Below are positions 18,428 through 39,792 of a stretch of DNA of 42,318 bases, in pieces. Source of the DNA: an uncultured Hungatella sp. (lineage in GTDB: Bacteria > Bacillota > Clostridia > Lachnospirales > Lachnospiraceae); NCBI GenBank assembly GCA_947089145.1, contig CAMUJH010000035.1, forward strand, positions 1 through 42,318, given 5' to 3'. The notes under the pieces were generated by a model. The model was not told the origin of the DNA. It worked only from the letters and a program-made list of their open reading frames with translations, and did not search any database. The translations under genes and the position numbers were made by a program. Numbering within the stretch: position 1 is the stretch's first letter; every line of letters begins with the position of its first letter.

Positions 18428-19090
18428 TTAAAATCTCAGCTCGCGAATATCGGCAAGCGTTTCCCCATACGGCTTTTTCTTGCCAAATAAAAGCGTCGTT
18501 CCCAGCACAAAGCCTTTTACGCCTTTTGGGGCATACTCCAAAATACGCTGTGCGCTGCATGCGCCGTCCCAATAAATCTCAAAACCCATGTCTTCTTTTA
18601 TTGCAAGCAGCTTCGTAATCTTTTTCCCTACGTATGGCAAATACATCTGACCCGCATTTCCCGGATTAACCGACATCACGAGAACCTTCTTTACGATACG
18701 CAGCATCTCCATAACCGTCTCCACGCTTGTTCCCGGGTTGATGGCTATGCCTGGGATCATCCCCGCATTGATGATCTTCTGAAGCGTTGTGGACGGATGA
18801 TATTCCGCCTCAGGATGAATGTAGATTGTGTCGCCTTTGCGGAGATTGTCCAAAAACAGGGAAATCGTACTGTTGGGATGTTCTATCATAAGATGGACAT
18901 CCAATGGTTTCTTTGTTGCGCTTGCTATATAACGCATATCATTTAAAGACATGGCATAGTTTGGGACATAGCGGCCGTCCATAATGTCTATGTGGAACGA
19001 ATCAATACCGCCGCTTTCTATGTTTTTTACTTCATCCTCCAGATGGGCGTAGTTGGCGCACATCATAGATGCAGTCAATTCAAAATACAT
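18428..19090 (-). CDS. Ribulose-phosphate 3-epimerase-like protein
   Basis: This 220-residue TIM barrel of the pentulose-5-phosphate 3-epimerase family interconverts Ru5P and Xu5P in its classical form. Metal and acid-base positions are kept: HIDIMDGRYVPNYA (His33, Asp35), LDVHLMIEHP (His66) and YWDGACSAQ (Asp near 175). The phosphate loop SVNPGNAGQMYLP is present, although the usual VDGG is WDGA. Being at the end of a glycan locus and next to a HAD phosphatase, it is probably a dedicated paralogue acting on a sugar phosphate for glycan precursors rather than the housekeeping enzyme. It follows the HAD gene by seven bases, with AAAGGT upstream of the ATG. It is the last gene of the locus. Confidence 0.85.
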   Translation of the reverse strand: MYFELTASMMCANYAHLEDEVKNIESGGIDSFHIDIMDGRYVPNYAMSLNDMRYIASATKKPLDVHLMIEHPNSTISLFLDNLRKGDTIYIHPEAEYHPSTTLQKIINAGMIPGIAINPGTSVETVMEMLRIVKKVLVMSVNPGNAGQMYLPYVGKKITKLLAIKEDMGFEIYWDGACSAQRILEYAPKGVKGFVLGTTLLFGKKKPYGETLADIRELRF

Positions 19091-19097
19091 TTTAATC

Positions 19098-19469
19098 TTA
19101 CCTTTCTCTCATAATCTTTGGCAGTTCAAATTGGTTTCTGTCTACGTTTAACGCGACTGCCATGTCAAGCCCTGACGGTTTTCTGTCGTTTACCATAATC
19201 CGCTCGCCCATTGGCATATTGAACAAAATGGCATCATAGCGCATGCCTTCCGCTTTGAGGAAGTCCATGGTCATCTGCCTGTATTCTTCCGTTCTGGAAG
19301 TAAGAATAATAATCTTATCTTCCTCTGGAATACCACGCAGATATGCCGGCACTCCGTCCAAAACCGTATCATATCCGTCAATCTTATAGCCATTATGTTT
19401 TAACAGCGTCCCGTCCAAATCAAATACCCATGTTTTTGGCAGCGTGGACAGACTCATGGCCTTTTCCAT
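19098..19469 (-). CDS. Small HAD-superfamily phosphatase
   Basis: This compact HAD protein of 123 residues has motif I WVFDLDGTLLKHNGY near residue 14-28 (nucleophile Asp), motif II as IIILTSRTEEYR near 56, and a C-terminal FNMPMGERIMVNDRKPSG with a weaker motif III/IV. It has no cap domain, as in small capsule-locus HAD phosphatases. It probably dephosphorylates a sugar or polyol phosphate. ATG 19469 follows AAGGAGG and overlaps the end of the upstream GT9-like gene by 16 bases, showing tight coupling. The longer frame to 19607 lies wholly inside the preceding gene and is rejected. Confidence 0.8.
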   Translation of the reverse strand: MEKAMSLSTLPKTWVFDLDGTLLKHNGYKIDGYDTVLDGVPAYLRGIPEEDKIIILTSRTEEYRQMTMDFLKAEGMRYDAILFNMPMGERIMVNDRKPSGLDMAVALNVDRNQFELPKIMRER

Positions 19470-20689
19470 ACAAAGTCCTCCTTTACCACAAGATTTTCCC
19501 ATCCTTTCAGCGCATACATATCTATGGCTTTCCATTTGGTATCGCAATAGTTGTAGTCCGGATAAAGGGCGATCTTTGTGCAGTCCGCATAGCGCAGAAC
19601 ATCGCACAGACCGCTTCGTATTCCAATGAATGTACCTGCATATTCTGCAAGGGGCTGAATTTCAGCAAGTTCCGGGCTGACAGGCAGCGTTCCTTCAAGG
19701 GGCTTTTCATCTCTCACTACGTTCGTATAGCACTGAAACCCGCGTTCTGTGTAATCCTTTACAATCTGCTGCCAAACACGGCTGGAAAGCGTAGTTACAG
19801 ATTTGGCATAGGGCGATAAAATGACCGATCTCCCCTTTTGTATTTTATCCAAATCCCTGTACGGCTTCCAATGCGTCGGCCGATATGGCTTTGTTTCCTT
19901 TGGCAGGCCGAACACGCCGCAGCAATATATTTGTTCCAACGGGATTTTCTTAATATACAATGCCTTATGTAAGTCAATGACATACGGCCTGTCCTGATGG
20001 GGGATAAAGGAATCCTTATCTTTCGTATACACCACCGCCTGTATCATCTCATCCATATCCTGCTGAGAAAAAGATTCCGTCTCGTATTCGCCAAACAAGC
20101 CCACTGTCTGCGCGCACGCCTCTCCGATTACTCCTATAAAACAATTTGATATTCCTTTTTGTTTTGCAAAATACGGTAAATAAGACATCATAAAGCAAAT
20201 ATCGCCAAGGGCTGCAAACGGACAGAGAAAATAAAAATCCGCCTTATGCTTTTCTTTTAATGCCGCCAGCTTTATCATTCCCAGTTTCAGCCGTCTGCGT
20301 TTTCGAACAATGGTATCATCAGAAAGCGAATATTCCGCAAAGCTGTTATACTCGATCATCTTATATATCTGTCCCGTATATCCCAGGCTCTTAAGCTGCT
20401 TTGCCATGGCCTCATAAGCGCGGGCAGCAATGCACACAACTGATTTTTGTGTCTCCGTTAAGATCCGCATTGGCGCTTCTATTATAATATTCCCATATCT
20501 TTTTCCATGTTTTTCCGCATTATTATCAAGAATTGCCTCAACCGAATATCCCCTATTTAATAATAAATCGGCTAACTCTTCCGTGGCATTGCAATGGCCA
20601 AATAAATAGATCTTTTTATTCTGAAAAACATTGTTTGCAATGCAGGCATTGAGATTCAAAAGCATTTCTTCATAATGTTTTTTTTCCAT
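19454..20689 (-). CDS. Rossmann module + GT9-like glycosyltransferase
   Basis: This 411-residue, two-domain protein has residues 25-110 forming a PglD-like Rossmann module (KKIYLFGHCNATEELADLLL, then VEAILDNNAEKHGKRYG). Residues about 150-405 resemble the heptosyltransferase (GT9, GT-B) fold, with FFLCPFAALGDICFMMSYL as the N-lobe and VILSPYAKSVTTL plus FIGIRSGLCDVLRYADC as the nucleotide-sugar lobe. Assignment to GT9 is by pattern and remains tentative. The ATG at 20689 has AAAAGGATACTGATT before it. The gene follows a 126-residue protein by 22 bases; together the pair matches the domain order of the 612-residue protein next door. Confidence 0.65.
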   Translation of the reverse strand: MEKKHYEEMLLNLNACIANNVFQNKKIYLFGHCNATEELADLLLNRGYSVEAILDNNAEKHGKRYGNIIIEAPMRILTETQKSVVCIAARAYEAMAKQLKSLGYTGQIYKMIEYNSFAEYSLSDDTIVRKRRRLKLGMIKLAALKEKHKADFYFLCPFAALGDICFMMSYLPYFAKQKGISNCFIGVIGEACAQTVGLFGEYETESFSQQDMDEMIQAVVYTKDKDSFIPHQDRPYVIDLHKALYIKKIPLEQIYCCGVFGLPKETKPYRPTHWKPYRDLDKIQKGRSVILSPYAKSVTTLSSRVWQQIVKDYTERGFQCYTNVVRDEKPLEGTLPVSPELAEIQPLAEYAGTFIGIRSGLCDVLRYADCTKIALYPDYNYCDTKWKAIDMYALKGWENLVVKEDFVWKRP

Positions 20690-20711
20690 AATCAGTATCC
20701 TTTTTAAACGG

Positions 20712-21092: not shown

Positions 21093-21150
21093 ATGCCATG
21101 TCTCTCCCTATAATTGCAAGACATCTTTTGTCCACGCCAGCTTTCCTTTT

Positions 21151-22989
21151 CTATCCATAGAATACTGCTCTCACTTTGTCTAATAGTGTTCTCTCTTCAC
21201 ATTTTTTAAACTCCAGTTCAGTGATATTCTTGTTTCCAAATCCCATCTTGTGAAGGCTGAAATAGTCATAAGATGAACTGTTTAATAAGGTTTTTCCCTC
21301 CGGATAAAAAATAACCATCTGCGCAGTTGAAGAGGAAACAATATCGCACAGCCCGCTCCGCAAGGCGACAAATCCCCCTGCTTTGTTTAAAAAATCAATA
21401 ATCTGCAGATACGGAATAAATATTCCCTGTGTCCCATTTATAGCTTTTTCTTTAGGTGATGATACATTTGTGCATACATCGTACCCTAAGTTTTTCAGCT
21501 CTCCCGCCACTTCCTCCCAGACCTCTTTCGAAATATCGTATACCGTATTTGCATATGGAGAAATCAAAACGGTCTTTCCCATTTTTAATCCATATTTCTG
21601 AAAAAGGGAGTCTGCGCTGTCCTTTTTAAACTGCGGCATTGTGATTCTTTCATTTAACCCAAATACCGCTTTTTGAAACATAGTATGAAAATCAATCCCA
21701 TGATACCCCCTCAGCCTTGGCACCATCGTCTGTTCCATACCGTCATTTAAAATGGTAATATCACTGTTTTCAGGTCCCATCAGCCGGGCATAGGATAACA
21801 GGCACATTGTCAGAGATGTCTTTAAATAAACCGTATTAAGTTCAAACATATTTGCCACTTTTTCACAATTCCCAGACACTACTACCAGGACATACTTATG
21901 GATTCCTCTGTTCTGCATTACTTTTTTTAAATACAGGCCTGTTAAATAAACATCCCCGGTTCCAGGATAGGGGCATATGAATATGTGCTCCTTGGGAAAC
22001 TTCTCTCTAAGTTTTTTGTAAACCCTTCTTCCCTCTGTTAATTCTTTGGCTACATACTGTATGCTTTTCTCCGATACGCTGAGTAAATAGGGACGGCTGC
22101 ATACCACAAATACCTGCTCCCCAAGCCTGTATCCCAGATAGTAAAGCTGTTCGCACATGGCTCTGTAATAAATAGACGAAATAATAATTTTTACATTCTT
22201 TTTGAAAGTCCCCAAATACTCTTCCGGACTATATATGGGTATTCCTCCGGCTGTTTCTCCGGCTTTCATAGTATTATTATCAATAATTGCCGCAACGCGA
22301 TATCCTTCTAACCTTTGCGCTATATACATAGAGACATTTGAGACTCCGAACAGGACTACAGGATCTTCCTTTTTTATTACTTCTTTTTCCAACAAAAAAG
22401 CAACTCCTGCTTCCCAATATTCCTGCAGGGTGTCATATTGTCTTTCATCAAATTCCTTTATTTCAGTTTCTTTTGCCCAGTCAATTCTTTTATATTGTAT
22501 TTTTCTTGTTTGGGTTCTTTTGTATGGCTCTTGATCAGCAGGCACCCGCTCCAATTTCAAGATTGCAATTGCTGTAATATCTTTTTTCGATAATCCGCAG
22601 CACCCCAATAACCGCATTCCATCTGCATCTGCAGTATTTTTAAATGTATTTATTATAATCTGGTCAGAAAACCTATAGATAGAATAGAGCATGCACAGCT
22701 TATTTATTTCATCTTCAGCAGCCAGCATAAATTCAAACGGTGCCGTTGCATATTCCAGAGAAAACTTTTCATATTTTTTATGGGATGCTAAGATAAAAAT
22801 GCGATCCAAATTTTTTTCATATTTCAAAGCTTTAAGAAAATATACGGTATAATAATTGATCTCCTCATCTTCAGAAGCCAGCACGATTACCATATCTGCA
22901 TGGCTGATATCTTGATTTACGATTAAATTTCCCCAAAATTTTGCCGCCTCCTTAAACTTAAGCATATTCTCGTCAAAAGTATGAACCAT
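21151..22989 (-). CDS. Three-domain protein: N-domain, Rossmann, GT9-like
   Basis: This 612-residue protein comprises three parts. Residues 10-150 form an unknown alpha/beta domain (MVIVLASEDEEINYYTVYFL), also found as the separate 126-residue protein. Residues about 208-300 form a PglD-like Rossmann module (VVLFGVSNVSMYIAQRLEGY, VAAIIDNNTMKAGETAGG). Residues about 335-612 form a GT9/heptosyltransferase-like region (IFICPYPGTGDVYLTGLYL; VLISPYANTVYD at 475; GGFVALRSGLCDIVSSSTAQ near 538). It is a probable cytoplasmic sugar transferase; donor and acceptor are unknown. It is a paralogue of the downstream 126+411 pair with the genes fused. The upstream gap of about 90 bases holds a sugar-isomerase gene fragment. 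Confidence 0.65.
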   Translation of the reverse strand: MVHTFDENMLKFKEAAKFWGNLIVNQDISHADMVIVLASEDEEINYYTVYFLKALKYEKNLDRIFILASHKKYEKFSLEYATAPFEFMLAAEDEINKLCMLYSIYRFSDQIIINTFKNTADADGMRLLGCCGLSKKDITAIAILKLERVPADQEPYKRTQTRKIQYKRIDWAKETEIKEFDERQYDTLQEYWEAGVAFLLEKEVIKKEDPVVLFGVSNVSMYIAQRLEGYRVAAIIDNNTMKAGETAGGIPIYSPEEYLGTFKKNVKIIISSIYYRAMCEQLYYLGYRLGEQVFVVCSRPYLLSVSEKSIQYVAKELTEGRRVYKKLREKFPKEHIFICPYPGTGDVYLTGLYLKKVMQNRGIHKYVLVVVSGNCEKVANMFELNTVYLKTSLTMCLLSYARLMGPENSDITILNDGMEQTMVPRLRGYHGIDFHTMFQKAVFGLNERITMPQFKKDSADSLFQKYGLKMGKTVLISPYANTVYDISKEVWEEVAGELKNLGYDVCTNVSSPKEKAINGTQGIFIPYLQIIDFLNKAGGFVALRSGLCDIVSSSTAQMVIFYPEGKTLLNSSSYDYFSLHKMGFGNKNITELEFKKCEERTLLDKVRAVFYG

Positions 22990-23080: not shown

Positions 23081-24394
23081 TTAAAACAGGCTATCAAACT
23101 CAACACGCGGAAACACCTCCAGCATTCCGCCTCTTGTTGCATTATAAATTTCTACGTTTTTCTTTTTTGCCATCTTTAAAATATATTCACAGCTTTCTAT
23201 CACACTGTCAGTATAAAATGGGCTGTACGCCTTTCCGTTTTTTCTTCCGATTACATCTTTATCCCCGTAAAAATGATTATTCGAATCACTGAATGTATTC
23301 GAATAATTAATATCAGCCCCTATAAGATATATCGCGGAAAATCCCATATACATGGCCAAATACAGGCAGGCGGCTAATACGGAATACCCGCACATATATC
23401 CTTCTGAAAAGTCTTCGCCTCCGCATATTCGCCTGTTTCTGTCAGAAAATGAAACATGGTACTTATAGACCTTCTCCCGTATATCTGCGTCCCATTCATA
23501 AGTATCCGCCAGGAATTTTACGGCATTTACATTTCTCCCTATTTCCGCAGCGTAATACCTGAATAAATTTACGTCTTCGCCAACATAATAATCCGGCCGC
23601 CAATCCGTTTGATCATAGGAATAAAATATCTTATTCATGCTGATACATAATTCATGATGCCGCCAAAGAACAGCCAAATCCTCCATCCTTACACTGGGAC
23701 CTGTTGCAACAATAAAACAGCGCTTATTCTTATGCTTGTTTTTAAACTGGCATATCTCTGAGTTGATAAACCTTTTTGGCAGAAATTTCCCAAGAAAAAA
23801 AAGATCTTCCCATGTGCCTGACATTATCTTATCGGTTATCTCATGGTTCTTCTCACCGGATACGACCAGAAATTCAGCATCACTCCCTCGGTTCAGGCAG
23901 TCCATGACGCTAATCCTCACGCCTTCCTGTTCATATATACGGGTGCAAAATTGAGGTTCACATTTTCTTTCGCTAATCAACAGGTAATCGCATCCCAGAA
24001 GTTTTAATATGCGCGCCACAAGTATTCCATATATGGATAACCCGATCAAATAAATTTTCCTGTTTATATATCTCTGGATATGGTTTCCGATATTTTCCAG
24101 AATTTCCGGTTCATACATTTCAACAACTTCCCATGGACATTCATTTGAGCGAAAAAAGTGAAAGATTTCGTTTTGAAGCAAAATCTCAAGAATCGCTTCA
24201 TCATCCGCCGGAGAAATGATTATCATATCTTTTGCATATTTTTCACAGTAATCTTCGAAAGAAATAACAGGTTTGCCAAAATATTTCTCCCCGATCTTTT
24301 CTGGATTCGATTCAATAAACGCTTCTACATCGTCTCGAAAATATCCATATAGATTGCCTCCCCTTCTCCCGGCCCCCCATATTACATATCCCAT
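23081..24394 (-). CDS. Rossmann + DUF115/MptE-like protein (Maf-related)
   Basis: This 437-residue protein starts with a Rossmann module (MGYVIWGAGRRGGNLYGYF, residues 1-90). A second nucleotide-binding-like segment lies near 110-135 (KIYLIGLSIYGILVARILKL). A DUF115/MptE-like domain (about 210-437) follows, with KRCFIVATGPSVRMEDLAVL, LAACLYLAMYMGFSAIYLIG and the terminal NATRGGMLEVFPRVEFD. This domain is shared with archaeal MptE and with Maf proteins, which transfer nonulosonic acids to flagellin. A glycosyltransferase role in protein glycosylation is therefore inferred. The ATG at 24394 follows GGAGG at five bases; the ATG at 24412 would overlap the upstream stop with no ribosome site. It is a close paralogue of the next gene. 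Confidence 0.75.
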   Translation of the reverse strand: MGYVIWGAGRRGGNLYGYFRDDVEAFIESNPEKIGEKYFGKPVISFEDYCEKYAKDMIIISPADDEAILEILLQNEIFHFFRSNECPWEVVEMYEPEILENIGNHIQRYINRKIYLIGLSIYGILVARILKLLGCDYLLISERKCEPQFCTRIYEQEGVRISVMDCLNRGSDAEFLVVSGEKNHEITDKIMSGTWEDLFFLGKFLPKRFINSEICQFKNKHKNKRCFIVATGPSVRMEDLAVLWRHHELCISMNKIFYSYDQTDWRPDYYVGEDVNLFRYYAAEIGRNVNAVKFLADTYEWDADIREKVYKYHVSFSDRNRRICGGEDFSEGYMCGYSVLAACLYLAMYMGFSAIYLIGADINYSNTFSDSNNHFYGDKDVIGRKNGKAYSPFYTDSVIESCEYILKMAKKKNVEIYNATRGGMLEVFPRVEFDSLF

Positions 24395-24408
24395 TGCCGC
24401 CTCCGATT

Positions 24409-25698
24409 TCAAGAAATTATTGCGTCAAAGCTTTTTCTTTCAAATACTTCTAACATCCCGCCTCTGGTGGCATTCACAATTCTTGCCCCACAGGCTTCTG
24501 CAGCCTCCTTCGCCTTCTTATAAGCAATTAATTGCCTTTCCGCATTAAACTGCGCGGCTCGGATTTCTTTATAATAATTATGATAACCTTCAAAATGGTT
24601 AGATGTGTCATAAACATCAGCGGAATAATGAAAGTCAATGCCTAATAAATATATTTCTTTAAATCCCATGTACACTGCCAGCTGCATGCATATATATACT
24701 ACCGTCTCCCCATTATAAATACAGCGTTCTGCATTTTGGGAAAACCGGATATTTTTATCACTATATTCACCTCGTATGCGGTTAATTTTTACAGACGTAT
24801 TCAATCCGTCCTGCATCCAATATAATTTAGGTTTTGAGGGTATGAACTTATACTCTAACGGGAGTTCTGCAATTTCTCTTGCCAAATCTTCTATCATGCA
24901 GGTGTCAACGGCCACATAATAATCAGGACGCCACATAGTTTTAGGAAAAATCTTATAAATTCTGTTTACACTAAAGCACTTTTCATTATTATAAGCCAGC
25001 ATATTCAGATCATTCACTGTTAAGCTTGGCCCCGTTCCCACAATAAAGCATCGTTCGCCTTGATGCAAGCCCTTAAATTTCAAGATTTCCTCATTATGAA
25101 AAACCATGCTTTCTTCCAAATAGTCATATATGCTTAATACTTTTGCATCTTCCCCATCTAAGCGTGTTAAATTGTCATCCGTCAAATTCAAGATCACTTC
25201 CACATGGCCAGTAACTTCATCTAATGACTTAAATTTATACTCTCCTTCAAGACTGCCTTTCATTTCCCAGGGTATTTCATTCTGATCCACTAAACATACT
25301 TCAACCTCTTTTTGCTTCAAAAAATCATACAAATACAAAGCAAACCAGCCAAATCCCAATAAGGCGCAGGATTTAAAATCATATTGTAAGTTATATTCCT
25401 CACCGAGATCCTCTTCTGTCTCTCTCCAGTCGATTACCCAGGGGCATTCACTAAATAAAAAATAATTTTTTATTCCCTTATCTTTCAAGATCCGTACTAT
25501 TTCTTCCTCTGCTTCCAATGGAGTTATAAGAATAATATTGTCCCCATTGCATGCGTCAATCCCTTTTATTTCCTTCCCATTATAAAATGTCCCTGCCTTA
25601 TTGCTGTCAGCGTCTACAAAAAAAGCTACCCGCTCATCGCCTAAAATATGCAAAGCCCGTTTTCCCCGCTGGCCAGCTCCCCATATAATATATTTCAT
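24409..25698 (-). CDS. Rossmann + DUF115/MptE-like protein (second copy)
   Basis: This 429-residue protein is co-linear with the 437-residue neighbour: Rossmann MKYIIWGAGQRGKRALHILG (1-90), a second module near 110-150 (CALLGFGWFALYLYDFLKQK), and a DUF115/MptE-like domain (about 205-429). The domain has RCFIVGTGPSLTVNDLNML, CMQLAVYMGFKEIYLLGIDF and the shared ending NATRGGMLEVFERKSFD. It was probably made by tandem duplication, since divergence lies mainly in the central part. The ATG at 25698 follows GAGGAGGAGGT and overlaps the end of the 872-residue gene's region by a few codons upstream. Maf-like transfer of an activated sugar to protein is inferred from the family. Confidence 0.75.
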   Translation of the reverse strand: MKYIIWGAGQRGKRALHILGDERVAFFVDADSNKAGTFYNGKEIKGIDACNGDNIILITPLEAEEEIVRILKDKGIKNYFLFSECPWVIDWRETEEDLGEEYNLQYDFKSCALLGFGWFALYLYDFLKQKEVEVCLVDQNEIPWEMKGSLEGEYKFKSLDEVTGHVEVILNLTDDNLTRLDGEDAKVLSIYDYLEESMVFHNEEILKFKGLHQGERCFIVGTGPSLTVNDLNMLAYNNEKCFSVNRIYKIFPKTMWRPDYYVAVDTCMIEDLAREIAELPLEYKFIPSKPKLYWMQDGLNTSVKINRIRGEYSDKNIRFSQNAERCIYNGETVVYICMQLAVYMGFKEIYLLGIDFHYSADVYDTSNHFEGYHNYYKEIRAAQFNAERQLIAYKKAKEAAEACGARIVNATRGGMLEVFERKSFDAIIS

Positions 25699-25708
25699 AC
25701 CTCCTCCT

Positions 25709-30881: not shown

Positions 30882-31958
30882 TTATCTTTTATGTATAATG
30901 CATGCGCCATATATGATTGTTATGCTGTCAAGCTCTCTTTCTATCTGTTTAACCTTTTCAGGCAAAAGATTAAAATGATAATGGTTATACTCTGGATTCC
31001 AGTCTTTGCAAAAGTTCATAATTTTTGCTCTTGATAATACGTAGTCAAATATGGACTGAGAATCATATACAATAGGTGGATACTGTGCAAAAGATCCCTG
31101 TGCCCCGCAGAAACAATCTTCCAGAATATATATTCCTCCGCTCTCTAATAAATCCCAAAGCTTTTCGAAAGATACCCTCATATCGCCCCATGCATGGGAA
31201 GCATCATCTATAATAAGGTAAAATTTCCCTCTTTTCCTTAATTCTGAGATAGTAGTATCATCTGTACTGTTTCCACAAATCACTTCTACCCTTTCCTCTT
31301 CAAACGCTTTCGCCTTCGTATTTATATCTACGCCAATAATTTGGGCCTGCGTAAAATATTCTTTCCACATTTTTAATGAAGCGCCGTTTCCGCACCCCAG
31401 TTCACATATTGTTTTCCTCTCATGCCTTATATTTTGAAGCAATCTGTCGTAATGCCTCAAATAGTCGTGTGTCAATCTGATTCCGCTTTCCATAATCATA
31501 ATCGACGCCTTATCTGTTCCATATTTTATGCCTATACTATTTAAAACGCCTTCACTGGTTTTTAATTCTGCTATAACGCTCTTTATATATTCCAGGTTCT
31601 TTGACAGCGGCATAAAATGTATATTTTCCTGCCTGATTGCCGGATGCATTTGCAAACCTGTCGGCCATGACGTCTTTACGAATAAAATTTTGTCTTCCGG
31701 AAACTTATATTTTTCAATAGCCTCTGCGCCAATTTCCTTATAATAGTTACTACTGCATATGATTAAAATGTCCGCCTCTTTCTCATTGGACAACGCTTCT
31801 TCTGGAGACGCAACAAAATATTCTAAAATTTTTACTCCCTGCAAGTCCGGATTTTTATCCATCAGAGAAACAATTTCCCATTCTTTAAAATACGCCCTGA
31901 TTTGTTTAACAACTAACCGCCCTAAATCTGCCCCACCCCAGATAGCTATTCTTTTCAT
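30882..31958 (-). CDS. Rossmann + MycE-like SAM methyltransferase
   Basis: This 358-residue protein has the shared Rossmann module at residues 1-95 (MKRIAIWGGADLGRLVVKQI). Residues about 140-358 form a class I methyltransferase. The segment IGIKYGTDKAS, then HDYLRHYDRLL (about 142-174), followed by ICELGCGNGASLKMW (184-198), IIGVDIN and LIIDDASHAWGDMRVSFEKL (248-267), is the pattern of MycE-type macrolide-sugar O-methyltransferases. The two Asp of IIDD are the metal ligands there. O-methylation of a hydroxyl on a glycan sugar is inferred. It lies 14 bases before the propeller-like gene. Confidence 0.8.
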   Translation of the reverse strand: MKRIAIWGGADLGRLVVKQIRAYFKEWEIVSLMDKNPDLQGVKILEYFVASPEEALSNEKEADILIICSSNYYKEIGAEAIEKYKFPEDKILFVKTSWPTGLQMHPAIRQENIHFMPLSKNLEYIKSVIAELKTSEGVLNSIGIKYGTDKASIMIMESGIRLTHDYLRHYDRLLQNIRHERKTICELGCGNGASLKMWKEYFTQAQIIGVDINTKAKAFEEERVEVICGNSTDDTTISELRKRGKFYLIIDDASHAWGDMRVSFEKLWDLLESGGIYILEDCFCGAQGSFAQYPPIVYDSQSIFDYVLSRAKIMNFCKDWNPEYNHYHFNLLPEKVKQIERELDSITIIYGACIIHKR

Positions 31959-31983: not shown

Positions 31984-33834
31984 TTATTTTACAATATCCG
32001 CATATACAACTGTTAATTCTGCTGTTGGTGAATGGTGCGCCAAATAAATACTATAGTCCGGCATAATCCGTTTTAGGTAAATCGGAACTGACCATAGATC
32101 TGAATAATTAACTGAAACACATATTGCCAGTTTAGGCTTATTTCTTATAATCAATTCCCTCCCGCCTTGTAAAACAGACATTATATTTCTCACCTTGGCC
32201 CTCATAAAGGTAACCTTTGTATTTTTCAGTCTGCTATCCAAGCTTTCTTTCTCAAGCATGTTCCCATCATAATGTATGATTTTTTCATATTTCCCTTGTG
32301 TGTACTCTTTAAACTTTTCAACAATGAATTCCTTTTCATCTCCTATGTCCACATATGTCTCCCCGGCAGTTATCTGATAAAAATCGTTTCTAAAATATGT
32401 TTCTCCTTCATATAAATCTAAATATTTTATATTGCGGTCATGTAACATGCCCTGCCGCTTTTTTATGAGTTCAAAGTACAGCCATTTGGATTGTTTATCA
32501 CAGAATAAACTTCCTGCGTATTCAACATTTTCAAAATCTTCTGCGTCAACATGCCATGACATGCGTTCCCTCTTTTCTAAACATCTGAGTGAAAATAAAT
32601 TTTTCCATCCTCTTCCTATCAGTTCTTTCGCTATGTCCCTATATTTATCAGGCGATATGAGTATCCCCGCGTTTTTGTCTAACACATCAAACTCTGTAAA
32701 AGGAATTCCGGGACAGGCGTTTTTCTCATTTGCTTTCTGGTCTATAATACCTGCAATCAAAATATCGCGATATGTCTGTAAAAATTCCTCTCCTCTTTTT
32801 CCATACCCATATAGATATAATTTCCCCTCAGAAGCACAATCTCTGATTTCACCCCATGTTCTTTTTAAGAGATATTCGTCATCCTTCTTTTCTTTTTGAA
32901 ATTGTTCCAGTCTTTGAAGGTAATATCCACAAAACGGTAAATCTATTGCATATTCCCAAAACAAGGCTGCAGCATGAGTATATGCTCCAAAAGGCTCCAG
33001 CCATGGTTTTACTGGTATAGTATAATGAATATTCTTTGGGAATTCGTATCCCTCTTTATAATAAGAGAGCTGCTCGGAGAACAGCAATCGGCTCACATTC
33101 TGAAATTCTCTCTCTGTATATGGATACCAATTCCATCCTGCAGCAATGAATTTTACTTTTCCTGCACACATTACATTTAAAGCATCTTGATCCTGCAGTT
33201 TATATCTCTGATTTGCAATCAGCTGCAGCATATGTGTTTCCGGATAAGTATTTCTAAACTCCTTTAAGTTCATCACCAGAGCGCCTGCGTTAAAATACTC
33301 TTCCAGACATGCCTCCGGCAAACAACTTTTATTATAAATATATGTTGTGTTAAGCATATTGTTTTGCCCTATCACCACACAGCCGCACAGCCGCACTGCC
33401 CCAAGCAAGTACCCCTCTATATCTATGGAATGCATCTCTGCAATGTCACACAGGTTAATAACATCACAATCCAAATATACAGCTTTCTCATATTTATCCA
33501 AAATATATGGCACCAGCATTCTATAATATGTGGCTTCAGACCATTTCTCACGATTATGAATATTCCAATTGGCCTGATGATCTCCCATATATCTCTTCAT
33601 ATCCAAAAACCGTATTGAAATATTTTCCTTTTTGTTCATTTTTTCAATGATATCCTGATTGCTCTCAGAAATATCATCTGCCAAAACCAAAATATCATAA
33701 TTATTTTTCTGTGAGGCGTGACAAATAACGGATGCAAGCATAACTGCCAAAAATGGCGCATATCTATTATCAGAGCTGCATACAATTGTGACATTGTTTT
33801 CCAAATATGCAGGTTCTATATTATGTAAATGCAT
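31984..33834 (-). CDS. GT8 + Rossmann + FkbM-like fusion protein
   Basis: This protein of about 616 residues has a GT8 glycosyltransferase (VTIVCSSDNRYAPFLAVMLA at the start; KAVYLDCDVINLCDIAEM with the DxD near 120; EYFNAGALVMNLKEFR; LQDQDALNVM). The shared Rossmann module follows in mid-chain (about 337-415; GKLYLYGYGKRGEEFLQTYR). A C-terminal FkbM-like domain (about 475-616) has TYVDIGDEKEFIVEKFKEYT and the typical ending KLAICVSVNYSDLWSVPIYL, then DYSIYLAHH. In FkbM proteins the glycine-rich SAM loop is VDVGAN..G; here it is VDIGDEKE, so SAM binding may be lost. ATG 33834 follows GGGAGG by nine bases; ATG 33858 is possible but lies at the edge of the dispersed repeat. Confidence 0.75.
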   Translation of the reverse strand: MHLHNIEPAYLENNVTIVCSSDNRYAPFLAVMLASVICHASQKNNYDILVLADDISESNQDIIEKMNKKENISIRFLDMKRYMGDHQANWNIHNREKWSEATYYRMLVPYILDKYEKAVYLDCDVINLCDIAEMHSIDIEGYLLGAVRLCGCVVIGQNNMLNTTYIYNKSCLPEACLEEYFNAGALVMNLKEFRNTYPETHMLQLIANQRYKLQDQDALNVMCAGKVKFIAAGWNWYPYTEREFQNVSRLLFSEQLSYYKEGYEFPKNIHYTIPVKPWLEPFGAYTHAAALFWEYAIDLPFCGYYLQRLEQFQKEKKDDEYLLKRTWGEIRDCASEGKLYLYGYGKRGEEFLQTYRDILIAGIIDQKANEKNACPGIPFTEFDVLDKNAGILISPDKYRDIAKELIGRGWKNLFSLRCLEKRERMSWHVDAEDFENVEYAGSLFCDKQSKWLYFELIKKRQGMLHDRNIKYLDLYEGETYFRNDFYQITAGETYVDIGDEKEFIVEKFKEYTQGKYEKIIHYDGNMLEKESLDSRLKNTKVTFMRAKVRNIMSVLQGGRELIIRNKPKLAICVSVNYSDLWSVPIYLKRIMPDYSIYLAHHSPTAELTVVYADIVK

Positions 33835-33860
33835 AAATGCTTCACAGCCTCCCTTCATTT

Positions 33861-33947
33861 ACACAAAATGCCAAAAGCGGGCATTTTGGTGCCATACGGT
33901 CAGCGCAGCATATGCGCAGACCTACCATAAGAATTCGATACTTTCAT
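33861..33947 (-). repeat. Dispersed 87-bp repeat, full copy C
   Basis: It matches the reverse complement of 16478-16564 at 81 of 87 positions. Two hairpins are visible: CAAAATGCC/GGCATTTTG at one end and GGTC-T-GCGC/GCGC-T-GACC in the middle. The last bases overlap the TGA stop of the 555-residue gene (33944-33946), and the element fills the gap before the GT8 fusion gene, inside the glycan operon. Confidence 0.9.
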
Positions 33948-35611
33948 GATAAATCAGCAACAGCAATTCCATGCACCAACAAATATTTCTTATGATGTCC
34001 CTTATTTGGATAAAGAATACACTCGTTTCTCCGCACCGCAATCTCGCTCTGCTCATCCAGCATATAAATACCGTTTCTCCAGATTCTTCTGCTTACCGCA
34101 TCATTCACAAATCCTTCACCCAGATTTTCTATGTCAAAAGAAATGTCAAACTGGTAGATCAAAAACCCTAAATACTCTACCCTGATTTTGGTTCTAACCG
34201 TTTTCTCTAAAACTCTTACTGCTAAACCGTTATCCTCAGCGTATCTTAAAGCAAAAGCCTTTACTCTTCCAACTAGTTCCCTATAGCTTCCCTTTTTGCA
34301 TAAAATATCCGCATCCTTATGTATCGGAAAGCTTTTCGGAAAATCGCATGCCATATATGGCACATCCAGCTTGCACAGCGCATATTCCATATCTTTTATT
34401 TGTACAAAGCATTCCGTAATATCAAGACGCAGCTTTAAGATTTTATCAATCACCTTACTCTGATAATAATTATCAGAAATATGTATGATATTGTCATAAA
34501 AATAGTCTTCTACCCTGTCCTGGAAGCGGCCTCTGATAATCTTTTTCAGTTCCTCCGCTTTTACAGACAGCGGCAGCGATGTGGCGCCTTTCAGCCTGTA
34601 CCTCGGTTTCTCTATGGATAAATACAAAACCTCCACCGTATTGCCGCAGCCGCGCATATGCTCGATCTTCTTTTCTACTTTCCAATCCTCTATGTCGTCT
34701 ACGGAATAAACGGCTCTTATAAAATCCGGCAGCTTATCATCTGTCAAGCGTTTTGTTTCCGCTTTTTTTATCTTTGCAAATTCTGAAATTTCCGCCTTAA
34801 TCTCCTGGCAAAACTTCATAGCCGGAGGCCAAAGGAACGCCACAAATTCTTTCTGCCCCGGTTTCATTATTCTTTCAATTTTCTGTTCTATGTTTTGAAT
34901 TTCGCTTGTTAAAAATTTATGATTCCAAAACCACTGGATTCTATAATCATTCTCATACTTCTGCGGCGTTATCTTTACAGGAAGCATCAAAATATTAAAA
35001 TATAAACAAAGGGCAGCACGATGCGCCCCGTCCATAATTTTCATTGTCTCATCACAAACTATATAGGAATCCTTTTCATATCCGTTTTCCCTGACAGAAT
35101 CTATTAATCTCTTAAATCTGTTCCATTCTTCTTCTGCCTGAAGGTCGGTTAACTTAAGACGTTCCTGCTGCATTTTTTTGTAAAGTTCAATTCCTTCGCT
35201 TTCCTCCCTCATATAGGATTCTATGGCAAAGTATTTAACCGCAATGTCCGCTCTGTTGAAATCTCCCCATTGTTCCATCTGCATAGATAAAAAATCATCA
35301 ATATACACTTCCGCCGTTTTGCAGATATAATCCACAATAATATTGTGTTCCCTGATTCCTAGCTTTAAAAGCTGCGTATACATCTGGGCGGCATAATCCG
35401 TGCTTGCCAAGACGACCTTGTCAAATTGCAGTTTGCCATGCTCCCCAGGCGCATATATTTTCCACGGCCCGGACTTCCAATACTGGTTCTGCTTTTCAAC
35501 AGAATTATCTAAAAAGCCTGCGATATCGTATTTCTTTAACACCTGGCCCACTATTTTTTCCGCCATGTTGCCAGTACCAAAAACGAGTACCTTCTGCCGC
35601 TTTGATTCCAA
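33944..35611 (-). CDS. Rossmann + ParB-like + nucleotidyltransferase-like protein
   Basis: This 555-residue protein is largely unrecognised. Residues 6-95 are the shared Rossmann module (KVLVFGTGNMAEKIVGQVLK, IAGFLDNSVEK). Around 185-210, MKIMDGAHRAALCLYFNILM resembles the ParB/sulfiredoxin-type nuclease-fold motif (D-G-x-H-R-x-A) seen in kinases and NTP-using enzymes of glycan loci. Around 425-500, FPIHKDADILCKKGSYRELV followed by IRVEYLGFLIYQFDISFDIE resembles the D-x-D-x-x nucleotidyltransferase fold. The start is TTG at 35611, needed to include the first beta strand; GGTGAT lies upstream. It follows the CMP-sugar synthetase gene by 16 bases. No function is assigned. Confidence 0.55.
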   Translation of the reverse strand: MESKRQKVLVFGTGNMAEKIVGQVLKKYDIAGFLDNSVEKQNQYWKSGPWKIYAPGEHGKLQFDKVVLASTDYAAQMYTQLLKLGIREHNIIVDYICKTAEVYIDDFLSMQMEQWGDFNRADIAVKYFAIESYMREESEGIELYKKMQQERLKLTDLQAEEEWNRFKRLIDSVRENGYEKDSYIVCDETMKIMDGAHRAALCLYFNILMLPVKITPQKYENDYRIQWFWNHKFLTSEIQNIEQKIERIMKPGQKEFVAFLWPPAMKFCQEIKAEISEFAKIKKAETKRLTDDKLPDFIRAVYSVDDIEDWKVEKKIEHMRGCGNTVEVLYLSIEKPRYRLKGATSLPLSVKAEELKKIIRGRFQDRVEDYFYDNIIHISDNYYQSKVIDKILKLRLDITECFVQIKDMEYALCKLDVPYMACDFPKSFPIHKDADILCKKGSYRELVGRVKAFALRYAEDNGLAVRVLEKTVRTKIRVEYLGFLIYQFDISFDIENLGEGFVNDAVSRRIWRNGIYMLDEQSEIAVRRNECILYPNKGHHKKYLLVHGIAVADLS

Positions 35612-35627: not shown

Positions 35628-36770
35628 TCAATTAATGATTCTTTCTATAATCTCTCTTACTGCCCCTTCTCCGCCTTTTCGCTTTGCTATGTAGTTTACA
35701 TTTTTTCTTACCTCTTCTTCTGCATCCGCCGGACATGCGCTGAACCCAACCGCTTTCAGGCACTCAATGTCATTTCGATCATCACCTACATAGGCTGCCT
35801 CTGACATTTTTATCCTGTACTTTTCACAGATTTCTTTTAATACGGACATTTTATCCCTTGCGCCTTGGTAAATCTCGTCCACTTTAAGCTTTTCTGCACG
35901 GGCTTTGTTCAGCGCCCTGTCTTCGCCTGTAATAATGCCTGTCCGAATGCCTTTATTCCTCAGCAGCTGGAATCCCATCCCATCCCTGGCATTGAATTTC
36001 TTTATCTCGTCACCATTTTCCGTATAATACATGCCGCCATCTGTCAGGCAGCCGTCACAGTCCGTCAGAAAAATCTTTATGTCTTTCCATTTTCTTTCTT
36101 CAAGAATACGCTTTTGCAAGAGATTCTCCACGATGATCCAATCGGATGGCTCGTCGATTTCAAAATAAGTATCCTGCGGCATCACATAAGCCTTTATATT
36201 TCCGGACATCCTGTTTTTTGCCTGTAATAATCGGTCTTTGCTTGTAATATAAAAAGCCCCGTTTTCCACAAAATTACCGTTAAATTCCTGCCTTCGGGGC
36301 CGTCTTGTGTAATCATAGTTAAGGGCGTGCGCAAAACCTGCCTCATCAATGCTCCAATGAAATCTCTTCTGTTCTACCACGGACAGCACGCTGTCAACAT
36401 CTTCTTCCTGATATAGCCGCACTCCCTCCATTAAATCGCCGCTGGTCAAAAGCGGCGACGTCGCCTGAATCAGCACAATATCATCAAAATCATGTTGTTT
36501 TGCAAATTCTATCATTGCAGATTCTGTAGATGCGGTATCTGTCGCTGTCTCGCTGCTTCTGTCAATAACTGTTACTTTTGGGATTTTAAATCCGCACACC
36601 GTATCCCTTATCAATTCACTGTCTGTCGCCACATATACTTTGTCTATGGCAGGACAGTCACATGCGGCCTTTACAGTCCAATAAACCAATGGCTTCCCTG
36701 CTATTTCTTTTATATTCTTTAGCGGTATGGATTTGCTGCCTCCCCTTACCGGAATAAATGCCGTTATCAT
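35628..36770 (-). CDS. neuA: CMP-ulosonate synthetase fused to KdsC-like phosphatase
   Basis: In this 380-residue bifunctional protein, residues 1-220 form a CMP-acylneuraminate cytidylyltransferase (FIPVRGGSKSIPLKNIKEIA, residues 5-24; DDIVLIQATSPLLTSGDL; ENGAFYITS; YFEIDEPSDW). Residues about 228-375 form a C0-type HAD phosphatase like KdsC (IFLTDCDGCLTDGGMYYTEN, residues 233-252; IITGEDRALNKARAEKLKVD; YVGDDRNDIECLKAVG). The first part activates an ulosonic acid with CTP; the second removes phosphate from a precursor such as an ulosonate phosphate. The same domain order is known in vertebrate CMAS and in some bacterial enzymes. The fusion implies a phosphorylated condensation product. It is 16 bases after the NeuB gene. 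Confidence 0.9.
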   Translation of the reverse strand: MITAFIPVRGGSKSIPLKNIKEIAGKPLVYWTVKAACDCPAIDKVYVATDSELIRDTVCGFKIPKVTVIDRSSETATDTASTESAMIEFAKQHDFDDIVLIQATSPLLTSGDLMEGVRLYQEEDVDSVLSVVEQKRFHWSIDEAGFAHALNYDYTRRPRRQEFNGNFVENGAFYITSKDRLLQAKNRMSGNIKAYVMPQDTYFEIDEPSDWIIVENLLQKRILEERKWKDIKIFLTDCDGCLTDGGMYYTENGDEIKKFNARDGMGFQLLRNKGIRTGIITGEDRALNKARAEKLKVDEIYQGARDKMSVLKEICEKYRIKMSEAAYVGDDRNDIECLKAVGFSACPADAEEEVRKNVNYIAKRKGGEGAVREIIERIIN

Positions 36771-36786
36771 AATCTAATCTCATTTC

Positions 36787-37656
36787 TTATATTTTCTTAT
36801 ATTTCAATTTTTGTCTTTGAACCTGCTCTATGGGTAATATCTCTTCTCTTTTGTACTGTAAAGAACGATATACAGCATCCAGATTCCTTTTTAATTTTCT
36901 GATTCCATCCGGTTCCAGCGACGCCGCATGATCGGTTCCTTTCCATGTCCTGTCAAGGGTGTAATGCCTCTCAATATATTCCGCGCCCAGCGTGTACGCG
37001 GCTATGTCTGCGGCAATTCCCAAGTGATGTCCGGAAAATCCGATCGCTTTAACCCTCCCGCCGTATTGTTCTTTCATCCTGAGAATTTCCAATAAGCATA
37101 CGTCTTCAAAAGGCACCGGGTAGCCTGATGTGCAGTTATATAATATCAGATCCTGATTCCGTTTCTTCTTTTCAAATAATTGAACAATGCTTTCCTCTTC
37201 CTCATGTGTGGTCATCCCAAAGGAAAGCTGAATCTCACCGCCATAGTTGTCACACAGCCACTCCAGCATTTTAAAATTATTGTTGCACGCAGACGGGATC
37301 TTTATAAACCGAGGATTCAATGTTGCAATTTCCCTGGCGCTTGTCATATCCCAGACCGATGTGGAATAGGTAATGTTCATCTCCTCGCACCATTTCTTCA
37401 GCTGCGCGTGCTGTTCCAGATTAAATTCCAAATATTCCCTGTGCTCCCCGTATGTACTTCCATATGAATTTTGAGGATTGGCATGGGGCGCATTATATTG
37501 TTCCTCTGTCAGCAGTTCTTTAGGACAGCGCTTTTGAAATTTAATTGCATCTGCTTTACAGAAAACCGCCGCTATATTAATTAAATCATGGGCAATCTCC
37601 ATCTGTCCCATATGATTGCATCCCGCTTCTGCTATCACATACGCCTTTTGGTACAT
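36787..37656 (-). CDS. neuB: NeuB-type ulosonic acid synthase lacking SAF domain
   Basis: This 289-residue TIM barrel of the NeuB family condenses phosphoenolpyruvate with an aldose or aldose phosphate to give a nonulosonic acid or relative. The family motifs are AYVIAEAGCNHMGQMEIAHD (5-24), DAIKFQKR, SVWDMTSA, RFIKIPSACNNNFKMLEWL, KAIGFSGHHLGIAADIAAYT and YIERHYTLDRTWKGTDHAAS (227-246, with the metal His). Typical NeuB has about 340-350 residues with a C-terminal antifreeze-like SAF domain that helps bind the second substrate. This protein stops right after the linker (EEILPIEQVQRQKLKYKKI). GGAGTAAGG precedes the ATG, four bases after the SIS gene. Confidence 0.9.
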   Translation of the reverse strand: MYQKAYVIAEAGCNHMGQMEIAHDLINIAAVFCKADAIKFQKRCPKELLTEEQYNAPHANPQNSYGSTYGEHREYLEFNLEQHAQLKKWCEEMNITYSTSVWDMTSAREIATLNPRFIKIPSACNNNFKMLEWLCDNYGGEIQLSFGMTTHEEEESIVQLFEKKKRNQDLILYNCTSGYPVPFEDVCLLEILRMKEQYGGRVKAIGFSGHHLGIAADIAAYTLGAEYIERHYTLDRTWKGTDHAASLEPDGIRKLKRNLDAVYRSLQYKREEILPIEQVQRQKLKYKKI

Positions 37657-37660
37657 GGCC

Positions 37661-38257
37661 TTACTCCTTTCCGCCGATAAACCGGTTCATTTTCCCGATG
37701 GCCCCGCCTGGATGATTCCTCTTAAAATCCTCAACCGACAAACCCATCCTCTCTGCAATCATCATGGCCAGCCCCTGGAGCACGATCAGGTTCACGGTAG
37801 TAGAATTGTTGGGCATAATATTCCACAAATCCCCCTCATGTCCAAGCATAAGGACCACGCTGTTTGGTATCTCCCTGGTCAGCGTACTGTCCTTTTCAAA
37901 TGTCAGCAGCCACAGATTAACATTCCTTTCTCTTAAAAGCCTTGCCAGATAGATGGACTCCTCCGTTTCTCCGCTTTTCGTAAGTATGATTACCATGTCT
38001 CCATCTTTGACAATCCCCATATCTCCGTGCACTGCCGAGTTGGTATGTAAAAAACAGGCCTCCAATCCCATAGACACCATGGAACCAACGAACTTGTCAC
38101 AGATGGGAACATTTTTCCCAAGCCCTGAAACAATTATCTTATGATCGCTGCGCAGTGTCTCAACGGCCTCATTTACCCATCTTTCAAATACCTTTTCATC
38201 CAAAGAGTGAACAGAATGATCAAACTCCGCCAGTTGTTTTTCAAAATAGGAAATCAT
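37661..38257 (-). CDS. SIS-domain sugar-phosphate isomerase (KpsF/KdsD-like)
   Basis: This 198-residue SIS protein is close to the N-terminal half of arabinose-5-phosphate isomerases (KdsD/KpsF/GutQ). It has KIIVSGLGKNVPICDKFVGS (40-59), the catalytic-like HTNSAVHGDMGIV (71-83), ILTKSGETEESIY (90-102) and the family ending GLSVEDFKRNHPGGAIGKMN. Full-length A5P isomerases add a CBS pair after this point, which is absent here. Substrates are therefore probably a ketose/aldose phosphate couple feeding the NeuB-type synthase that starts four bases downstream. AAAGGAG precedes the ATG. A short copy of this gene's internal sequence lies at 23035-23066. Confidence 0.85.
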   Translation of the reverse strand: MISYFEKQLAEFDHSVHSLDEKVFERWVNEAVETLRSDHKIIVSGLGKNVPICDKFVGSMVSMGLEACFLHTNSAVHGDMGIVKDGDMVIILTKSGETEESIYLARLLRERNVNLWLLTFEKDSTLTREIPNSVVLMLGHEGDLWNIMPNNSTTVNLIVLQGLAMMIAERMGLSVEDFKRNHPGGAIGKMNRFIGGKE

Positions 38258-38268
38258 ATTTTTCTCCT

Positions 38269-39792
38269 TTATAATGTTTCTTCCAAATAGTATAAGCCGT
38301 TATAAAACGCTCCGCATATAGAGTCAAAATCCTGCCACGCATAAGTTGTCAGTGACAGCCATATGATGGCATGAAGCAGCTTTGTCTCCCATTTATCCGC
38401 ATCAGTCAGTCTGAAAAATTCCTGTTCCATATCCTCCCAATGATTCGATTCGATATCCAGGCTCACCCCTTCGACTGCCGATTCCCTGATTTCAAGGGTA
38501 AAATCTTTTAGGTTAAACCTGTCATAATTTCCAACGATGGAATAATACATTTTTGCCCAGTCATAGCGCACATCCCCAAAAAGCTCCGTATAGCCGAAAT
38601 AACCTCTTGGATCTATGAGGACAGGCTCCCCGTTTTCACGCAGCATCATATTTGAAAAGGTACAGTCGCCATGAATAAATGCAAATGATCCGCAGGACAG
38701 AGCCAGTTTGTCCACCGCCTGCTCCAGTTCCCGTTTATGGTAAAAGACATTTCTGCACTTTCTTTTGTTTACCACTATCTCCCTGTCCCTTGCAAACGGC
38801 ACCAAATCCTGTATTTTTGCAATTCGCTTAAACGTTTTATTAAAATATGCTTCCTTTACACTGAATACGTCCGCTGACCTTGTTTCGGAATCGTGCAATT
38901 TTTTTAAGGAAGAAACAAGTTTTTCCAAAACATCCTTTTTCTGTGCGTAAGGAAGCCTGCAGTCATAAATATTCCTGCCGACTATATACTCCATTTTTAA
39001 AGGATTCGTATCGTATATTTTAGGAAGGATTTCTATCCCCTTTTCATTTGCCTTCTCATACCAGGCACGTTCCCGAACTGACAGCTTCCTTCCCTGCGCA
39101 TCCACAGGCTCTTTTGTCAGTATCCCGTCTTTCACTGTAATTCTGTTAAACGGCCTGCACTTTTCTTTTTTAAGCTTCTCATATTCTTCCAAAGTGCCGA
39201 ACTCTCTTGTACCTGCAAGGCCCATGGTCCGGTATTGCATATTCTGCTCCTGCATCCAGCGCACCAGTTCTCCGCTCCCTGGAATACCTGCAAGGCTTTC
39301 TTTATCCTTAAAAAGAAAGAATCCTGCCACTCCATATTTTTCAGACGGTTTTTCCTCAAATTTTCCGTCCTCATATTTCCATCTGCAGGGAAATGTTTGC
39401 GAGAGCCCTATATAATTTTCAGCCAGATGTTCTGTACCGCTTTCATATTCCTCCGGAAGTTCAAATCGTTCAGGCAAGAGCAGATCTGACCAAATAAGCA
39501 TAAACGCCTCATCAGGGGGAATAAATTGCAGAGCCTGTCCTATACCTGAACATGTTCCTGCGCCGTGTGCATCAACTACCTGGTATTTTACCTCTGCAAA
39601 TACCTCCAGATATTCCCGCATCACTTCTTTTTTATAGTCTGCTATGATAACAAAATATTTGTCCGGATATTTCCGAAACAGATGAAACAGCATCGGAAGA
39701 TTATCCGCCGGTACCAGGGCTTTTGGTTTGTTTTTTGTTAAATATTTCAGACGCGTGCCTTTTCCGCCTGCCTGTACAATGATGTAGTCCAT
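38269..39792 (-). CDS. Nucleotidyltransferase fused to APH/choline-kinase-like domain
   Basis: In this 507-residue bifunctional protein, residues 1-230 form a sugar-phosphate or choline-phosphate nucleotidyltransferase (DYIIVQAGGKGTRLKYLTKN, residues 2-21; KPKALVPADNLP; AFMLIWSDLLL near 96-106). Residues about 235-507 form an aminoglycoside-phosphotransferase/choline-kinase fold (MEYIVGRNIYD, AFIHGDCTFSNMMLREN at 371-387 and VLIDPRGYFGY at 391-401). Such a pair can phosphorylate a small alcohol or sugar and then activate it with NTP, as LicA and LicC do for choline. It is the first gene of the locus. AGAGGAAAA precedes the ATG, and a leader of about 320 bases lies between it and the best promoter. 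Confidence 0.85.
   Translation of the reverse strand: MDYIIVQAGGKGTRLKYLTKNKPKALVPADNLPMLFHLFRKYPDKYFVIIADYKKEVMREYLEVFAEVKYQVVDAHGAGTCSGIGQALQFIPPDEAFMLIWSDLLLPERFELPEEYESGTEHLAENYIGLSQTFPCRWKYEDGKFEEKPSEKYGVAGFFLFKDKESLAGIPGSGELVRWMQEQNMQYRTMGLAGTREFGTLEEYEKLKKEKCRPFNRITVKDGILTKEPVDAQGRKLSVRERAWYEKANEKGIEILPKIYDTNPLKMEYIVGRNIYDCRLPYAQKKDVLEKLVSSLKKLHDSETRSADVFSVKEAYFNKTFKRIAKIQDLVPFARDREIVVNKRKCRNVFYHKRELEQAVDKLALSCGSFAFIHGDCTFSNMMLRENGEPVLIDPRGYFGYTELFGDVRYDWAKMYYSIVGNYDRFNLKDFTLEIRESAVEGVSLDIESNHWEDMEQEFFRLTDADKWETKLLHAIIWLSLTTYAWQDFDSICGAFYNGLYYLEETL

Follow-up and report, generated by a model that had tools for sequence, protein, structure and literature searches.

Does a run of adjacent genes whose products resemble the successive enzymes of one sugar pathway encode that pathway? 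The question is raised by a locus on a 42,318-nt stretch of DNA from an uncultured Hungatella sp. (the window, by which we mean the whole stretch analysed), which is contig C35 of a 4.46 Mb genome that is 87% complete. The locus is read on the minus strand from 39792 down to 18428 and opens with four consecutive genes, separated by 11, 4 and 16 bp, that encode a fusion of an NTP_transferase domain with an APH-type kinase (NT/kinase; 38269..39792), a 198 amino acid (aa) KpsF/GutQ-type SIS sugar-phosphate isomerase without CBS domains (37661..38257), a 289 aa NeuB-type synthase without a SAF region (36787..37656), and a CMP-ulosonate synthetase (CTP_transf_3) fused to a KdsC-type HAD phosphatase (35628..36770); a small HAD phosphatase (19098..~19472, start placed from relatives) and a second RPE-type epimerase (18428..19090) lie at its other end. 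Profile searches bore out these positions and families, including the lack of CBS domains, all of which a sequence-only reading had proposed: the matches of NeuB (PF03102, 4.2e-68), SIS, CMP-synthetase, HAD and RPE (PF00834, 7.8e-47) were far above chance, and those of NTP_transferase (1.1e-6) and APH (5.7e-6) were weaker, yet exceeded the Pfam cut-offs. The same reading had placed these genes in one pathway, with an isomerase of the kind used for 3-deoxy-D-manno-octulosonic acid (Kdo) feeding NeuB. Our comparison of gene neighbourhoods makes it probable that the locus is instead a single surface-glycan operon containing two independent modules for sugar activation, of which module B (NeuB and the CMP-synthetase/HAD fusion) would lead to CMP-KDN (KDN, 2-keto-3-deoxynononic acid, a known relative of the sialic acids) and module A (NT/kinase, SIS, small HAD and their companions) to a nucleoside-diphosphate (NDP) sugar. 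The families, residues, module boundaries and linkage reported here were read from sequence, and the substrates and products named are predictions drawn from them.

Gene neighbourhoods of the two modules

The surroundings of the synthase were compared across the best 80 of 100 relatives found (68-82% identical to the window NeuB) by scanning their flanks with tblastn. These flanks extended ~10 kb on both sides in 47 of the 80 loci and at least 3 kb in 67, and in 13 at least one side was shorter than 3 kb; L053 and L055 lie on one contig, and L051/L052, L025/L029 and L047/L049 seem to be near copies, all of which were counted. The CMP-synthetase half was found in 64 loci and the HAD half in 69, a LegF-like synthetase replacing the window-type enzyme in L032, L041, L047, L049 and L075. 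The SIS, the small HAD, the protein encoded from 19454 and NeuC were found in none of the 80 flanks, the NT/kinase in one (29% identity, partial) and RPE in one (L064). The kit of NeuB and CMP-synthetase/HAD recurs without the KpsF-like SIS, and within these comparisons (the window and the 80 relatives) the SIS and the synthase are linked in the window only.

From the other side, the SIS and the NT/kinase were each searched for in 200 genomes of the family and were each found in 11, the window's own genome included; seven genomes besides it carry both, and three SIS matches are weak (29-31%). A search of 391 genomes of the class added three full-length NT/kinase copies and one near a contig end. 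Seventeen NT/kinase loci were inspected, and exclusion of two that are cut by contig ends (G098 and G045) left 15 informative ones (the window, contigs C24 and C20 of the same genome, and G019, G079, G092, G094, G125, G166, G192, G195, G523, G554, G718 and G757). In 14 of these 15 the SIS gene adjoins that of the NT/kinase or is fused to it, the two forming one open reading frame of 699-728 aa in C20, G718 and G523 (L110:9085-11271, L168:8443-10542 and L169:8087-10186). The small HAD is present in 13, being missing from L105, which stops at the contig end, and from L111; RPE is present in three (the window, C24 and G079), and this NeuB in a single one, the window. Because module membership differs in this way across the NeuB and the NT/kinase loci, we regard the window as a junction of modules A and B. 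Two genomes, G019 and G195, contain both modules on different contigs.

The sequence-only reading had suggested a neighbourhood comparison as a check, and in genomes of the family it separates the NT/kinase-SIS module from the NeuB module, so that a single pathway of the four genes is not supported. As the SIS was found in none of the 80 NeuB flanks and usually travels with the NT/kinase, it was rejected as a feeder of NeuB, and the same counts give no support to a grouping of NT/kinase, RPE and second HAD with NeuB, one of 15 NT/kinase loci having this NeuB. RPE was set aside as a member of the ulosonate pathway on its linkage to NeuB in one of 80 loci versus NT/kinase in three of 15. At that one NeuB locus (L064:9624-14261), the genes after NeuB and the CMP-synthetase/HAD fusion encode a 77% identical RPE, an IspD/TarI-like protein and a zinc dehydrogenase, which may form a CDP-pentitol set; this company fits a pentulose-phosphate role of RPE.

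Several observations weigh against such a division. The 4-16 bp spacing of the four window genes is as tight as expected of one pathway or operon, and the modules co-occur somewhat above chance in the 199 other genomes of the family (two genomes, P=0.015). HAD and CMP-synthetase are found together in only 62 of the 80 NeuB loci, HAD alone in seven, and neither in nine, of which L045 is at a contig end. G079 (L198:1047-10035) has the NT/kinase (44% identity), the GT9-like protein, the small HAD and RPE (70%) with no SIS in 19 kb, and in G192 (L105) module A is preceded by a NeuB-family gene and by one resembling CMP-synthetases; this NeuB-family gene is a distant one, 27% identical to the NeuB on contig C1 of the window's genome.

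The synthase module and its predicted product

Module B is likely to make KDN, acting as a kit around a predicted mannose-6-phosphate-accepting KDN-9-phosphate synthase: NeuB would condense mannose-6-phosphate with phosphoenolpyruvate (PEP) to KDN-9-phosphate, the HAD half would dephosphorylate this to KDN, and the synthetase half would activate KDN to CMP-KDN. The best curated match of the HAD half is NCBIfam NF058599 (KDN-9-phosphate phosphatase), ahead of KdsC (143 against a cut-off of 208), and its best solved match is PDB entry 3e81 (8.7e-41), which we take to be BT1713; that of the synthetase half is PpNeuA (9t4z, 1.2e-51), presumably the CMP-Kdn synthetase of Prymnesium. At three positions that we assume to set phosphatase specificity (56, 64 and 67, numbered by alignment to 3e81), E56/R64/K67 are found in the window HAD, in 69 of 69 relatives with HAD and in all 12 Bacteroidales relatives aligned (those with loci, of 17 matches). 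The KdsC-type protein 3mn1 has R/R/S at these positions, and the combination of E and K is missing from all four other KdsC-like proteins compared (L129-L132); position 56 is changed in the solved chain 4hgq, and both 56 and 67 in 4hgr, variants that we take to be in keeping with such a role. These residues agree with the KDN-like product that the sequence-only reading had considered and disagree with the Kdo-like one. Its idea of phosphorylated intermediates is backed by the fused phosphatase with KDN-9-phosphatase residues and by a TYGxHR motif in the synthase, which occurs in 80 of 80 NeuB relatives and in all 11 readable NeuBs beside BT1713-type phosphatase genes; by alignment, it does not occur in the Leg-type synthase or the C1 and C36 NeuBs of the same genome, in Neisseria SiaC or in PseI.

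Gene linkage bears on the substrate. A protein that combines a pair of CBS domains with a PF01050 mannose-6-phosphate isomerase (PMI) cupin (2.6e-31; GMP_PMI 105.9 bits, cut-off 373) is encoded in 31 of the 80 NeuB loci, at most 100 bp 3' of NeuB in 19 of them and elsewhere up to 5.7 kb off. The cupin occurs in four of the 200 family genomes, all of them among the six NeuB genomes other than the window's (Fisher 2.4e-7), at distances from NeuB of 83 bp, 16 bp, 1.4 kb and 5 kb. This linkage points to mannose-6-phosphate as the NeuB substrate, and the window's genome has a type I PMI on contig C72. At L047:1292-2050, the CBS part of such a CBS pair and PMI cupin fusion matches KpsF/GutQ models. 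In the available text of a study on Prymnesium (PMC6200933), the Kdn-9-phosphate synthase uses mannose-6-phosphate and not arabinose-5-phosphate, N-acetylmannosamine-6-phosphate (ManNAc-6-P) or the unphosphorylated sugars tested; no mention of KDN was found in the accessible part of PMC13317340.

The synthase itself belongs to a clade of 283-299 aa proteins, compared with mostly 342-348 aa for the NeuBs linked to BT1713-type genes, and the clade was found in Bacillota, Bacteroidota, Spirochaetota, Actinomycetota, Thermodesulfobacteriota and Verrucomicrobiota (many of them metagenome-assembled genomes). The KDN pathway is itself of a known kind, here with a separate SAF-less synthase clade. This separateness is also among the points that count against a KDN assignment. 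Identity between the window NeuB and the Bacteroidales NeuBs encoded next to BT1713-type phosphatases is no more than 31-35%, and the C-terminal SAF/antifreeze region of the latter is missing from the former; a tree of 46 of the 99 collected sequences, in which bootstrap values are not fully settled and some branches are long, resolves the two as separate clades, each with 100/100 support, and a common clade with the BT1713-linked synthases was rejected. Because the window NeuB forms its own clade at this identity, KDN is not proven by orthology. The lack of a SAF region is not unique, since the C36 NeuB (297 aa) and 6ncs (290 aa) are also short. The HAD half scores 175.1 bits against NF058599, below the cut-off of 180, and passes the broad KdsC/YrbI subfamily TIGR01670 (167.1 against 106.95); as it is 46% identical to 3e81 yet still 39% to the KdsC-type 3mn1, the residues weigh more than identity. 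For the cupin, two of the four copies in family genomes (those at 1.4 kb and 5 kb) do not share a strand with NeuB, the query was picked from a NeuB locus and several of the family-genome matches are apparently among the 80 loci, so that the two counts are not independent, and the window has no PMI cupin.

Two other products were weighed against this evidence. If the SIS made an aldose phosphate such as arabinose-5-phosphate, NeuB could join it with PEP to a Kdo-like acid that the HAD and the CMP-synthetase would finish; the consecutive order and 4-16 bp gaps of the four genes suit such a scheme, as does the resemblance of the SIS to short KpsF-type PDB chains (3etn, 1.6e-21; 5uqi, 3.4e-20), yet the phosphatase carries E/R/K and not R/R/S, the SIS keeps to the NT/kinase and is found with none of the 80 NeuB relatives, and a PMI cupin accompanies NeuB elsewhere, which together leave a Kdo-like acid very improbable. 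Synthesis of N-acetylneuraminic acid (Neu5Ac) 9-phosphate from ManNAc-6-P and its conversion to CMP-Neu5Ac, as in animals, is somewhat less remote and still unlikely. The HAD half has a weaker match to an N-acylneuraminate cytidylyltransferase chain (3ewi), and both the TYGxHR region and the fusion of CMP-sugar synthetase and HAD presumably recall the animal enzymes; against this, NeuC is found in none of the 80 loci (no search was made for the ManNAc-6-P epimerase NanE), the PMI cupin linkage points to mannose-6-phosphate, and the phosphatase half is closest to a KDN-9-phosphate phosphatase. KDN accordingly stays our preferred product for module B.

Upstream genes for legionaminate (Leg), pseudaminate (Pse) or Neu synthesis had been described as missing, and this is true of the window, in whose operon no NeuC, dehydratase or aminotransferase is annotated; LegB-like and LegC-like genes are found in three and six of the 80 NeuB loci. 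It is not true of the genome: contig C23 (L006:4850-12158) carries a legionaminate-type set with a LegC-family aminotransferase (415.1 bits, cut-off 420) and dehydratase-like, PtmE-like and formyltransferase-like genes. Leg genes elsewhere in the genome are a finding that the sequence-only reading had named as refuting its own idea, and formally this applies; the C23 set has its own NeuB, NeuC and CMP-synthetase, and its presence is for this reason undecisive for the window synthase. At contig C36 (L008:8344-12273), a KdsC-like HAD fused to a GmhA-like SIS adjoins a second SAF-less NeuB (34% identical to the window NeuB) and a CMP-synthetase (63% to the window's). The fusion is matched in 11 other genomes, and in eight of the nine loci examined (over 3.5-14.5 kb of each) it adjoins, or is one gene from, a member of the C36 NeuB clade; the CMP-synthetase is also present in L189 alone. 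At C36, unlike in the window, an isomerase is truly tied to a NeuB-type pathway, which makes this locus a better fit to the earlier idea; its product could be an ulosonic acid that really departs from the standard ones, perhaps derived from a heptose phosphate. By eye, the loci with this fusion often lie near a gene resembling those of thiamine diphosphate enzymes. A further 'NeuB' on contig C25 (L009), beside TyrA/AroA-like genes, looks by eye like a 3-deoxy-D-arabino-heptulosonate-7-phosphate synthase and was rejected.

CMP-KDN would probably be handed to Maf-like transferases encoded within 23081-25716, where two MptE-like (Maf-type) candidate ulosonate transferases lie side by side (24409..25716, PF01973 1.5e-16; 23081..24412, 6.3e-13; both above cut-off). 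MptE-like proteins are encoded at most 6 kb from NeuB in 20 of the 80 loci, and flagellin genes flank NeuB in four (L073 from Eubacterium oxidoreducens, L078, L083 and L084); the flagellins of the window's genome are on contigs C25 and C15, with none on the window contig. A Maf protein of Clostridium botulinum accepts Neu5Ac and Kdo, according to the available text of PMC11339370.

The nucleotidyltransferase-kinase module

Module A probably makes an NDP-sugar, of D-arabinose or of a heptose. RPE would convert xylulose-5-phosphate to ribulose-5-phosphate, the SIS would isomerize this to arabinose-5-phosphate, and phosphorylation of the anomeric carbon, removal of the C5 phosphate and transfer of a nucleotidyl group would give NDP-D-arabinose or a similar NDP-sugar for use by a GT9-like transferase. 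The SIS scores below cut-off against TIGR00393 (2.8e-29; 102.5 bits, cut-off 203.7) and contains the motifs GLGK, VHGD, SGETEE and HPGGAIG, which we take to be catalytic; short arabinose-5-phosphate isomerases exist in C. tetani and E. coli CFT073. The putative transferase (19454..20689) has a GT9/heptosyltransferase-like predicted fold: its AlphaFold2 model (pLDDT 80.2, pTM 0.64) gave the heptosyltransferases TibC (1.3e-5) and WaaC (3.8e-5) as best Foldseek matches, with TM-scores below 0.5. Three RPEs are encoded in the genome, the top-scoring one on contig C7 and the other two, that of the window and an 86% identical copy on C24, beside module A.

NDP-D-arabinose is favoured because the SIS is KpsF-type and RPE recurs. 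Its main rival, which we consider possible and the less likely of the two, is an NDP-heptose made from sedoheptulose-7-phosphate in parallel to the GmhA/HddA/GmhB/HddC route. The bacterial NDP-heptose route has the isomerase and phosphatase logic of module A, and the set of steps (isomerase, kinase, phosphatase and nucleotidyltransferase) is identical; the likeness of the 19454 transferase to TibC and WaaC and a weak HddC match (3e-8, below cut-off) point the same way. Opposed to these are the type of the SIS, KpsF and not GmhA, the extra RPE in three module A copies, and a locus at which genes resembling, by eye, the canonical GmhA/kinase/HddC heptose set adjoin module A itself (L106:10982-15341). 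At another locus (L108, in G125), module A follows flagellin- and FliD/FliS-like genes (by eye) and the gene of an MptE-like protein.

Remaining genes and known systems

Between the modules, the minus strand encodes a 555 aa protein (33944..35611; no Pfam match at 0.01) with a Rossmann-like start (by eye), a DG[AS]HR motif and a possible NDK-like domain. It has matches in L012, L019, L024, L039, L080 and, in the same genome, L003 and L008, in several cases near NeuB or a CMP-sugar synthetase, and the DG[AS]HR motif and an H..DN.YQS stretch are conserved in five aligned relatives; a fold search gave nothing below 1e-3, the best NDK match being weak (2.2e-3). It is followed by genes for a GT8 glycosyltransferase (31984..33858, PF01501 3.7e-38), two methyltransferase-domain proteins found in the Pfam scan (30882..31958 and 28340..29692) on either side of a propeller-like protein (29791..30867, PF16755 0.0024 only, below cut-off), and a protein combining group-1 glycosyltransferase, MptE-like (below cut-off) and nucleotide-diphospho-sugar transferase domains (25709..28327). 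A protein encoded at 21151..22989 has relatives near module A in other loci. The same-strand run stops ahead of a GlnRS-like gene (16654-18366, by eye).

Taken together, these results suggest that adjacency alone misleads here, the Kdo-looking genes belonging to a neighbouring pathway. If the KDN assignment holds, many gut Lachnospiraceae, their relatives and bacteria from a number of other phyla would display KDN at their surface and make it with a kit of two genes, which in the window narrowly misses the curated KDN-phosphatase cut-off; an uncharacterised nucleotide-sugar module would also be exposed. A literature search by titles and abstract openings, mostly of non-subscription papers, found none on the SAF-less NeuB clade or on module A. 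We offer only tentatively the fuller picture in which module A is an undescribed, self-contained NDP-sugar route (most likely to NDP-D-arabinose), module B represents a separate SAF-less KDN-9-phosphate synthase clade in six phyla, and the glycan contains both sugars.

Among known systems, the trypanosomatid GDP-D-arabinose kinase/pyrophosphorylase, as described in the available text of PMC11301363, resembles module A in uniting kinase and nucleotidyltransferase in one polypeptide, and differs in that the kinase of module A is APH-type and the SIS is also joined in three copies. The Kdo pathway (KdsD-KdsA-KdsC-KdsB) shares with the window a KpsF-type SIS and a KdsC-superfamily HAD, whereas no KdsA was seen in the window, the HAD has KDN-type residues and the SIS belongs to the other module. 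Closer to module B is the KDN pathway of Bacteroides thetaiotaomicron, of which BT1715 is presumably a part: the phosphatase halves are alike (46% identity to 3e81, E56/R64/K67), as is the set of synthase, phosphatase and CMP-synthetase that needs only mannose-6-phosphate and PEP. In contrast, the window phosphatase is fused to the synthetase, and the window synthase forms a separate clade without SAF, as judged against NeuBs beside BT1713-type genes. BT1714 of this pathway is named in the available text of PMC6200933. The Kdn pathway of Prymnesium parvum, from the same text, is eukaryotic and without a phosphatase homologue found there, whereas its chemistry is that predicted for module B, and its PpNeuA is the best PDB match of the window's synthetase half.

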